Shown here one piece after another: positions 152-7,878 of a DNA stretch of 36,003 nucleotides (positions within the stretch are counted from its first letter, which is position 1; each line of letters opens with the position of its first letter). Origin of the DNA: Candidatus Daviesbacteria bacterium (lineage in GTDB: Bacteria > Patescibacteriota > Microgenomatia > Daviesbacterales > UBA10151); assembly GCA_028687915.1 (NCBI GenBank), contig JAQTZF010000001.1:65966-101968 (forward strand). Direction: 5' to 3'. The notes below the pieces were generated by a model. That model saw only the letters and a list, made by a program, of their open reading frames with translations, made no database searches and was not told where the DNA came from. Position numbers and translations under genes: made by a program.

Positions 152-2293
152 ATGCTTATTAGTGATCTGCTCTTGGAAACAAATTGGTGGTTAATATTGT
201 TAGTACTGGGATTAATCTTTTTACCTATCACCTCTTTAATTTTTAAATCTTTTTTTGATAAAGGATATATATTTTCTAAAATATTAGGAATGCTTTTTGT
301 TAGCTACCTTGTTTGGCTTATTGCCAGTCTAAAGATTTTACCTTTTAACTTTTTATTAATTTCTATTACACTTCTAATCTTCTCGCTGATTAATATAGCT
401 TTATTAGTTAGGTATAAACTCGTTGCTGTTTTTAAAAGGCATTTATGGATTTTTATTATGGAGGAAGCAACCTTTTTAACCGGCTTTTTATTTTGGAGTT
501 ATATTAAAGCACATGAACCTTCTATCCATGGTTTAGAAAAGTTTATGGATTTTGGGTTTATTAATTCTCTTTTAAGATCAGATTTCTTTCCTCCCTCTGA
601 TATGTGGCTTACTCCTTTATCCATAAATTATTATTATTTCGGGCACCTTGTTACTGCAGTACTTATAAAATTATCCACAGTCCCTCCAGAAATTGGTTAC
701 AATTTAATGTTGACCTCATTATTTGGACTTACGCTTGCTGCATCTTTCTCTATTGGTGCCAATCTGTATAACCTCTTTCTAAGGACTTCTAAATCACCTA
801 CCATAAACAAAACATTAATCATTATAGCTGGCTTCCTAAGTGCCTTCCTGGTCACTCTGGGAGGTAATTTACATACCATTTATATCTTTTTCCAAAGCTA
901 CATCATGGAGGACCCAATTGCTTTTTGGAATTTACCCGCAATGTTAAATTTAAATGGGTATTGGTACCCCAATGCAACCCGCTTTATACCTTTTACCATA
1001 CATGAATTTCCTATCTATTCTTTCGTAGTCTCAGACTTACATGGTCATGTCCTAAATATCCCTTTTGTTCTTCTCTTAATTGCATTACTGATGGTCATCT
1101 TTTTTCAACACAAGCTTAATTCTTATTGCTTAATTCTTATTTCTTTATTAATTGCGATTTTTCTAATGACAAACTTTCTAGATGCTCCGATTTATTTGCT
1201 GATAATTTTTATAGTCCTTGTTATGAGAAAAAGGACTATTCAACTAGCTTTTTTTGGGATTCCATTTTTTACACAAATTGCCAAAAAGATGACCATGATA
1301 GTTTTCTTTGCCATCCTCTTTTCACTTCCTTTTTGGTTATCTTTTAAACCTTTTGGTTCGGGAATTGGTGTAGTATGTGCACCCTTATTTTTAACAAATA
1401 TGGGTCATGTAGGTCCATTTCTTTTTGAAGCTGATCATTGTGCCCGCTCCCCTTTCTGGATGTTATTAATCCTCTGGGGCTTCCCATTATTTATTTTATT
1501 GGCTTTTCTTTTTAAACACTTAGACTTTGCTCATTTAAAATTGATTAAAAATTTGAAATTTAAAATTTATAATTCTGTAGATATTTTGGCTATCACTTTT
1601 TCTGTAACTGCTTTTATTTTAATCCTCATTCCAGAATTTTTATATGTCAAAGATATTTACCCCGCTCATTATCGGGCTAACACAGTTTTTAAGTTTGGTT
1701 ATCAGGCTTTTATTATTCTGGGGCTTATGTCAGGCTATATGATTACAAGATTCTTCTTAAATCTTAAATCATTTATCCTGAAACTAATCTTTGTAAGTTT
1801 ATTCTTTTTAGTTGCCATCTATCCCTATTTTGCCATTAATTCATACTTTAATAATCTAAATAATTACACCGGGTTAAATGGATTAAGCTGGCTACAAAAT
1901 TCATATCCTGCTGACTATGAAGCTATTACATGGATCAACCAAAATATTTCCAACCAACCAGTAATCTTAGAGGCTCAAGGTGATTCCTACTCTGATTTTG
2001 CAAGAGTTTCTGCTAATACAGGTTTACCCACAGTAATCGGATGGACTGTCCATGAGTGGCTTTGGAGAGGAAGCTATGACGAACCTGGTAAAAGAGTTGA
2101 AGATGTAAAACAACTTTATGAAAGCGAAGATTTAAATCTAACTAACCAGCTAATTCAAAAATATAAAATAAAATATATTTTTATCGGAGCATTGGAGAAG
2201 CAAAAATATACAAACTTAAATGAAAATAAATTTAAAAATTTAGGGGAAATAGTTTTTGAAAACAATCAAACTAGAGTCTACCAAATTTTCTAA
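152..2293 (+). CDS. DUF2298 (Chlor_Arch_YYY) polytopic membrane protein
   Basis: 713 aa, many TM segments, signature LSINYYYFGHL and conserved SDLHGH. Confidence 0.85.
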   Translation: MLISDLLLETNWWLILLVLGLIFLPITSLIFKSFFDKGYIFSKILGMLFVSYLVWLIASLKILPFNFLLISITLLIFSLINIALLVRYKLVAVFKRHLWIFIMEEATFLTGFLFWSYIKAHEPSIHGLEKFMDFGFINSLLRSDFFPPSDMWLTPLSINYYYFGHLVTAVLIKLSTVPPEIGYNLMLTSLFGLTLAASFSIGANLYNLFLRTSKSPTINKTLIIIAGFLSAFLVTLGGNLHTIYIFFQSYIMEDPIAFWNLPAMLNLNGYWYPNATRFIPFTIHEFPIYSFVVSDLHGHVLNIPFVLLLIALLMVIFFQHKLNSYCLILISLLIAIFLMTNFLDAPIYLLIIFIVLVMRKRTIQLAFFGIPFFTQIAKKMTMIVFFAILFSLPFWLSFKPFGSGIGVVCAPLFLTNMGHVGPFLFEADHCARSPFWMLLILWGFPLFILLAFLFKHLDFAHLKLIKNLKFKIYNSVDILAITFSVTAFILILIPEFLYVKDIYPAHYRANTVFKFGYQAFIILGLMSGYMITRFFLNLKSFILKLIFVSLFFLVAIYPYFAINSYFNNLNNYTGLNGLSWLQNSYPADYEAITWINQNISNQPVILEAQGDSYSDFARVSANTGLPTVIGWTVHEWLWRGSYDEPGKRVEDVKQLYESEDLNLTNQLIQKYKIKYIFIGALEKQKYTNLNENKFKNLGEIVFENNQTRVYQIF

Positions 2294-2475
2294 AAAAAAT
2301 ATTGTACTTTGCTCACTTGGAACAAAGACTGTTAAAAATTTTCTGAAGTTGATATCAGGGGGAGGTCCGGTTATACCGGAGGGGGTAAACTTTCCCCCGA
2401 TAATCAACGAAGAAAATTTAGGTCGACTTCCTGTGAGCAGAGTTTTGGTACTTTTGCGACCAAAAGTACAAATAA
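2292..2475 (-). ncRNA. Candidate structured noncoding RNA (6S-like rod with internal bubble), ends in U8 on minus strand
   Basis: Nested complementary blocks: 2302-2310/2463-2471, 2311-2316/2433-2438, 2319-2322/2428-2431, 2336-2344/2411-2419, 2348-2353/2403-2408, 2354-2356/2399-2401, 2358-2363/2393-2398, 2366-2370/2376-2380; A8 at 2292-2299 gives U8 on minus. Confidence 0.55.
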
Positions 2476-2480
2476 CAAAT

Positions 2481-7577: not shown

Positions 7578-7614
7578 TTGACAAATATCAACATATAGAT
7601 TACCATCTATATGT
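7578..7614 (+). promoter_or_regulatory. Promoter plus ArsR-type operator of the regulator/ISC operon
   Basis: TTGACA (7578-7583)-17 bp-TACCAT (7601-7606); perfect 10-bp inverted repeat ACATATAGAT-tacc-ATCTATATGT (7591-7614) abutting ATG at 7615. Confidence 0.75.
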
Positions 7615-7878
7615 ATGAAGCTAACTTCTAGTTGCGGTGGTTGTTTTGCAGGTCTTTCTTGTGGCACTCGCATGGAAATTATCACACTTTTACAGAAAAA
7701 AAAGCAAATGAGTGTTTCTGATATTGCCAAACATTTTAAATTAGCTCAACCAACAGTTACCCACCATTTAAAATTCCTGGAAGAAGTTGGAGTACTTGCC
7801 TCTAAAAAAGAAGGTAGGCAGGTTTTTTATACTCTGGCTCCTGATTGTGATAATAAAGATTGTCATATTTTTGATTAA
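7615..7878 (+). CDS. ArsR-family winged-helix transcriptional regulator with Cys-rich termini
   Basis: MSVSDIAKHFKLAQPTVTHHLKFLEEVGVLASKKEGRQVFYTL; N-terminal CGGCFAGLSC and C-terminal CDNKDCH. Confidence 0.9.
   Translation: MKLTSSCGGCFAGLSCGTRMEIITLLQKKKQMSVSDIAKHFKLAQPTVTHHLKFLEEVGVLASKKEGRQVFYTLAPDCDNKDCHIFD

Follow-up and report, generated by a model that had tools for sequence, protein, structure and literature searches.

The window analysed here is a stretch of 36,003 nucleotides from Candidatus Daviesbacteria. Near its start, a gene encoding a DUF2298 membrane protein (PF10060; 152..2293, + strand) faces a convergent gene for a YjbQ/UPF0047 protein (PF01894; 2481..3011, − strand). The 187-bp gap between the two folds into a long rod, with a minimum free energy of −69.2 kcal/mol for the + strand (z = −6.4) and −60 kcal/mol for the − strand (z = −6.3), and none of 200 shuffled sequences folded as well on either strand. 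This agrees with a previous reading of the window made from its letters (the sequence-only reading), which had proposed that a long rod-like RNA fills this gap. The nested complementary blocks that it reported, AAATTTTCT/AGAAAATTT, GTTGAT/ATCAAC and GGGGGA/TCCCCC, were all confirmed at their positions.

Architecture and covariation of the fold

A covariance model (R1) based on 16 relatives, with 135 positions and 40 pairs, matched the rod of the window copy at 2307..2442 on the + strand with 134.6 bits. The helices of this copy, all given on the + strand, were assigned from the fold and from covariation. The conserved base of the rod, P1, is formed by ACTTTGCTCAC (2306..2316) and GTGAGCAGAGT (2433..2443). 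Above it lie P2, in which GGAA (2319..2322) pairs with TTCC (2428-2431), a conserved CAAA loop, and P3, consisting of GACT (2327..2330) and GGTC (2421-2424). A conserved one-sided bulge, GTTAA (2331..2335), is situated opposite A2420. The upper part of the rod consists of P4 (AAATTTTCT, 2336..2344, with AGAAAATTT, 2411-2419), P5 (GTTGATATC, 2348..2356, with GAT-A-ATCAAC, 2399-2408) and P6 (GGGGGAGG, 2358..2365, with 2391-2398), the last being a G-run paired with a C-run with an A bulge beneath. The rod is capped by an apical hairpin, TCCGGT-TAT-ACCGGA (2366..2380), followed by a second, bulged G-run (2381..2385). As noticed in the sequence-only reading, GGGGG at this site can alternatively pair with CCCCC at 2394-2398. 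This alternative is itself conserved, in that both G-runs and the C-run are equal in length (5/5/5, 4/4/4 or 3/3/3) in 41/63 copies. The whole + strand architecture, from P1 through P2, the CAAA/GACT internal loop, P3, the GTTAA bulge, P4, P5, P6 and the apical hairpin to the second G-run, is kept.

Two parts of the layout proposed earlier changed on comparison. The supposed closing stem, TTGTACTTT/AAAGTACAA (2302-2310/2463-2471), proved to be a chance pairing: such complementarity extends over 9 nt in the window copy and at best 2-5 nt in other copies, and the conserved rod base is P1 instead. What had been taken for a single central bubble (2323-2335/2420-2427) holds the covarying helix P3, with 98% of cells paired in the 16-sequence alignment, and resolves into a CAAA/GACT-type internal loop and the one-sided GTTAA bulge.

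Covariation was examined by projecting the window's own fold on the 16 sequences in a MAFFT alignment, keeping pairs for which at least 9 of the 16 rows fitted. Two-sided changes were present in 27 of the 40 pairs, and the covariation score was 0.488, against 0.198 for shuffled data and no more than 0.19 when partners were slid. With 58 copies aligned to the model, an alignment that leans towards structure and contains related copies that are not independent data points, two-sided changes rose to 34/40 pairs and the score to 0.622 (0.195 when shuffled). In addition, the + strand folds better than the − strand in 57/71 copies, and G-U exceeds A-C in paired columns by 138 to 46, with a few columns giving much of this excess and with the copies being related. 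A single-stranded + form, either DNA or RNA, is therefore favoured. Comparison of the sequences strongly supports the view that this is a structured element under selection.

The rod is accompanied by a separate perfect hairpin on its 3′ side, GTACTTTTG-CGAC-CAAAAGTAC (2448..2469, with arms at 2448-2456 and 2461-2469). Such a hairpin was found in 65/71 copies compared with 19/635 random stretches (3% of random 65-mers), and its onset lies 5-7 nt past the rod in nearly all of the 65 copies that carry it. The stem varies in sequence (29 different arms) with the pairing retained. The alternative pairing GTACTTTT/AAAAGTAC seen in the sequence-only reading does exist, but rather than competing with a closing stem it corresponds to this independent hairpin. 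Comparison of the copies revealed an A-rich tail after the hairpin (AAATAACAAAT, 2470..2480, in the window; consensus AAARAAAA), with 57% A over 15 nt, 84% A at the best position and 23% T. The 5′ flank of the copies is T-rich. On the minus strand, the run of eight U that follows the stem, also pointed out earlier, is present in the window copy and is peculiar to it. The copies display no U-tract after either end of the element, and the element is therefore not an intrinsic terminator, in which a U-tract would directly follow a GC-rich hairpin.

Integron attC sites carry the boxes GTTRRRY/RYYYAAC. Judged against these, an attC site seems unlikely, as GTTAA forms an internal one-sided bulge and not a terminal box.

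Several copies deviate from this plan. Extra small hairpins resembling AGCGAAGC or CCTGCCGGCAGG, or inserts of another kind, are found inside the rod arms at L007:8045-8177, L093:4066-4214, L097:13746-13913, L158:6749-6919 and L164:2079-2242, with the remaining fold still recognizable. A diverged copy at L157 (~7592-7850, − strand) has the same 3′ hairpin and retains the bulge (GCGTTAA.../TAGCG), with a different core and without G-runs, and possibly represents a sister family.

Copies, boundaries and gene context

A BLASTN search with the gap sequence found six places in the 1.097-Mb single-contig genome, and the R1 model detected eight copies in this genome (G000; C1 positions 68272+, which is the window copy, 1015785+, 1016044−, 1019045−, 1019197+, 1042921−, 1070500+ and 1086550−). 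R1 matches were present in 26/138 relatives, with 24 copies in G031 and 10 in G007, and no match was found in the other 112/138. Among 380 genomes sampled across the phylum, matches occurred in nine, all from the class of the window. When a genome collection was scanned for the pattern of the 3′ hairpin, 20 stretches were obtained, all in Patescibacteria records, and those with finer titles were exclusively Daviesbacteria or Levybacteria/Levyibacteriota. A stringent DNA pattern scan of the collection gave zero matches. Phage or plasmid cargo was rejected, as no similarity was found in plasmid or phage collections and no viral contig contained the hairpin pattern.

All eight G000 copies are located to one side of dnaA/oriC at distances of 84-233 kb (dnaA is at 152 kb, where the GC skew flips), and 9 of the 10 G007 copies lie in a block syntenic with this G000 region, all on one strand. 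An origin-proximal function was set aside, since the origin does not lie at the centre of the copies' distribution and the pattern was seen in G000 and G007.

Near-identical copies (90-100%) are found at unrelated sites of one genome, and their likeness ends at or near the edges of the fold. The copies L159 and L167 are 100% identical over 167 nt, from position +2 of the rod base to 28 nt past the rod; L092/L095, L094/L095 and L167/L170 are 97.6%, 96.5% and 95.6% identical, respectively. These spans coincide with the limits of rod and hairpin, so the boundaries of the repeat match the structure. In the window, the whole mobile unit of rod and 3′ hairpin corresponds to 2306..2469 (+ strand; ends accurate to a few bases), the span common to near-identical copies, outside of which the copies elsewhere show little likeness.

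One clean empty site was found, occupied in L136 and empty in L078 with a difference of ~200 bp, and TTAT is present at both of its ends. Other sites that differ in presence and absence do so over the whole intergenic region. In congeners, the L064 site is a compact gap, has no element or carries dissimilar rods. Certain sites carry an element in more than one genus (G000/G007 and G026/G062/G067), with dissimilar rods. This same-site occupancy could reflect a conserved function, but insertion hot spots are the more likely explanation because the rods at the same site are dissimilar across genera and the gap is compact in other congeners.

We found no target-site duplication, nor an extra terminal inverted repeat above the level of shuffled pairing. 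Although the arms of the rod are inverted, the 3′ hairpin is situated beyond them. On these grounds a classical DDE-type MITE was rejected. In other respects the element is MITE-like: it is ~170 bp long without coding capacity, its eight G000 copies are dispersed at unrelated loci, near-identical copies have unrelated flanks, and a clean empty site exists.

Copies are also found next to one another. Head-to-head pairs of rods, with 5′ ends ~15 bp apart or less, are frequent (L007:11046-11331, L061:569-852, L155:2845-3163, L102:3636-3929, L097:13746-14058, L100:2894-3250 and L098:7538-7921), and one tail-to-tail pair was seen (L007, 7786+/8045−). A further copy, of which a truncated 5′ arm is present (CTGCAATTGATGCAGAGAGCGT, L064:1470-1500), lies immediately next to a full copy, which suggests a nested or adjacent insertion.

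With respect to genes, the positions are biased. The gene on the side of the 3′ hairpin points at the element in 50/71 cases (50:21), and stop codons often lie 0-12 nt from the hairpin, the stop codon of yjbQ being ~11 nt away. In tandem contexts the co-transcribed strand is mostly minus, or antisense (28:14). The neighbouring genes share no regulon or common theme and look like unrelated housekeeping genes.

Candidate enzymes and comparison with known repeats

Among the transposase types tested (Y1 and TnpB), no mobilizing gene was identified. Y1 transposases are encoded in 8/10 genomes tested. No copy lies within ~1.5 kb of the 19 Y1 loci in these eight genomes, and G031, with its 24 copies, has no Y1 gene. 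A REP of the RAYT type was rejected, as no Y1 gene is flanked by the element. PF07282 (TnpB) was found in 1/10 carrier genomes; its absence from the other nine argues against the omega (guide) RNA of TnpB or an IS200-IS605 end.

Two other short repeats adjoin rods. A REP-like repeat of ~42 bp (TCCACCC..GGGTGGAATTGTA..ACACCTGCGGA) is located directly 5′ of two of them (L138:1457-1500 and L064:1427-1470), and at G025:C3:258685-259455 two of its copies flank a Y1 transposase gene (258962-259216), the arrangement known from RAYT/REP systems. A second dispersed repeat, a ~35-bp palindrome of the AAGATTGCCACG..CGCAATGACA type, adjoins rods at L138:1705-1740 and L064:1689-1730 and is also present at dozens of other places, many of them in genus g26.

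In kind, the element resembles ERIC and bcr1, the latter a repeat with a conserved fold: all are small, non-autonomous, folded and intergenic. Like bcr1, it is also multi-copy and lineage-restricted. The likeness is one of kind and not of compared sequences, and the phyla differ. The bcr1, bcr2 and bcr3 repeats of the Bacillus cereus group are MITE-like intergenic repeats of the 100-400 bp class, with tens of copies, restricted to their lineage and often located in UTRs or operon spacers (PMC3446304, PMC6542083), and their mobility has been linked to a TTTAT motif (PMC6542083). The Microgenomates element differs in having no target duplication above chance, although TTAT is found at both ends of the clean empty site. 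The enterobacterial repeats ERIC/RU-1 and RU-2 are described as multi-copy, MITE-like intergenic repeats of 127-168 bp (PMC2759123, PMC2229807). Unlike these, the element studied here consists of a rod and an independent 3′ hairpin, folds asymmetrically with respect to strand and belongs to another lineage. With the REP/BIME repeats of RAYT it has in common hairpins near gene ends, frequent head-to-head pairing and the occurrence of Y1 genes in most of the genomes tested. However, REPs are 20-40 bp in length (PMC3733652), whereas the Microgenomates element is ~170 bp, flanks no Y1 gene and reaches its highest copy number in the Y1-less G031.

How the element may spread

We consider that the repeat is probably a non-autonomous small mobile element of ~170 bp in the Microgenomates, whose folded + strand would be under selection and which would be mobilized by an enzyme provided in trans. 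The unit would consist of the imperfect rod with its conserved bulges and the separate 3′ hairpin. Its folded + strand, as a single-stranded DNA or an RNA intermediate, would most likely serve as substrate for a recombinase, a transposase or a reverse transcriptase acting in trans. New copies would be inserted chiefly close to the 3′ ends of genes, the 3′ hairpin facing the gene, and this would place many copies in 3′-flanking or untranslated sequence. The data show the multiplicity and patchy presence of the repeat, boundaries that follow its structure, empty sites, covariation and a positional bias. We infer that folding is needed for mobilization and that the enzyme acts in trans, and the manner of spread outlined here is to be understood in the same sense.

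The positional bias could also be read as function. A cis-acting RNA in the 3′ UTRs and spacers of mRNAs, stabilizing 3′ ends or controlling readthrough and retained for that reason, would fit the proximity to gene ends, the 50:21 orientation, the short distances from stop codons, the occupancy of some sites in different genera and the strongly constrained fold. We nevertheless regard this as unlikely: in tandem contexts it is mostly the minus strand that is co-transcribed, yet the + strand folds better; the neighbours form no regulon, most relatives do without the element, and with no U-tract at either end it is not an intrinsic terminator. The sequence-only reading had favoured a gene for a 6S-like or other trans-acting non-coding RNA, to which the length, rod shape and covariation would correspond. 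6S RNA (SsrS) is usually present in one or two copies per genome and is widespread in a lineage. The element shares with it a rod of roughly similar length, but occurs patchily in 8, 10 or 24 copies per genome, with near-identical copies at unrelated sites. The closing stem and single central bubble on which the 6S-like layout depended find no support in the comparison, and Rfam returned no family at E≤10 beyond chance matches, 6S being absent from these and at the gathering threshold. Head-to-head rods whose 5′ ends lie ~15 bp apart are also too close together to accommodate promoters of their own, which speaks against an autonomous RNA gene. A 6S-like gene is thus already disfavoured by the comparative data, and as judged from sequence any such gene seems very improbable.

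An origin as a selfish, SINE-like RNA deserves separate mention. Here the + strand would be transcribed, the 3′ hairpin and A-rich tail would serve to recruit or prime a reverse transcriptase, whose cDNA product would be inserted. The ends of the element coincide with those of an RNA-like fold, and the A-rich tail, the strand asymmetry and the lack of target duplication are all in line with this. We give it a slim chance, as head-to-head pairs leave ~15 bp between rods, any internal promoter is putative, and the tail may instead reflect a target preference, given the T-rich 5′ flank. In a broader form, there is a rather small chance that the repeat is either a selfish structured RNA (a bacterial counterpart of SINEs) or a new type of single-stranded DNA element, with boundaries set by its own fold instead of terminal repeats or target duplications, and mobilized in trans by an enzyme of the Patescibacteria.

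Whichever enzyme is involved, the Microgenomates harbour a real, and apparently undescribed, family of mobile repeats that are small and structured; we found no description of such repeats from this group in the open-access literature. In several families belonging to a single class of ultra-small bacteria, extensive compensatory change has maintained the fold of a dispersed repeat whose mobile boundaries coincide with that fold. This raises the question of which enzyme reads the fold, and whether it does so as DNA or as RNA. Small repeats that were active recently are present in these streamlined genomes, and a model for annotating them is now ready.
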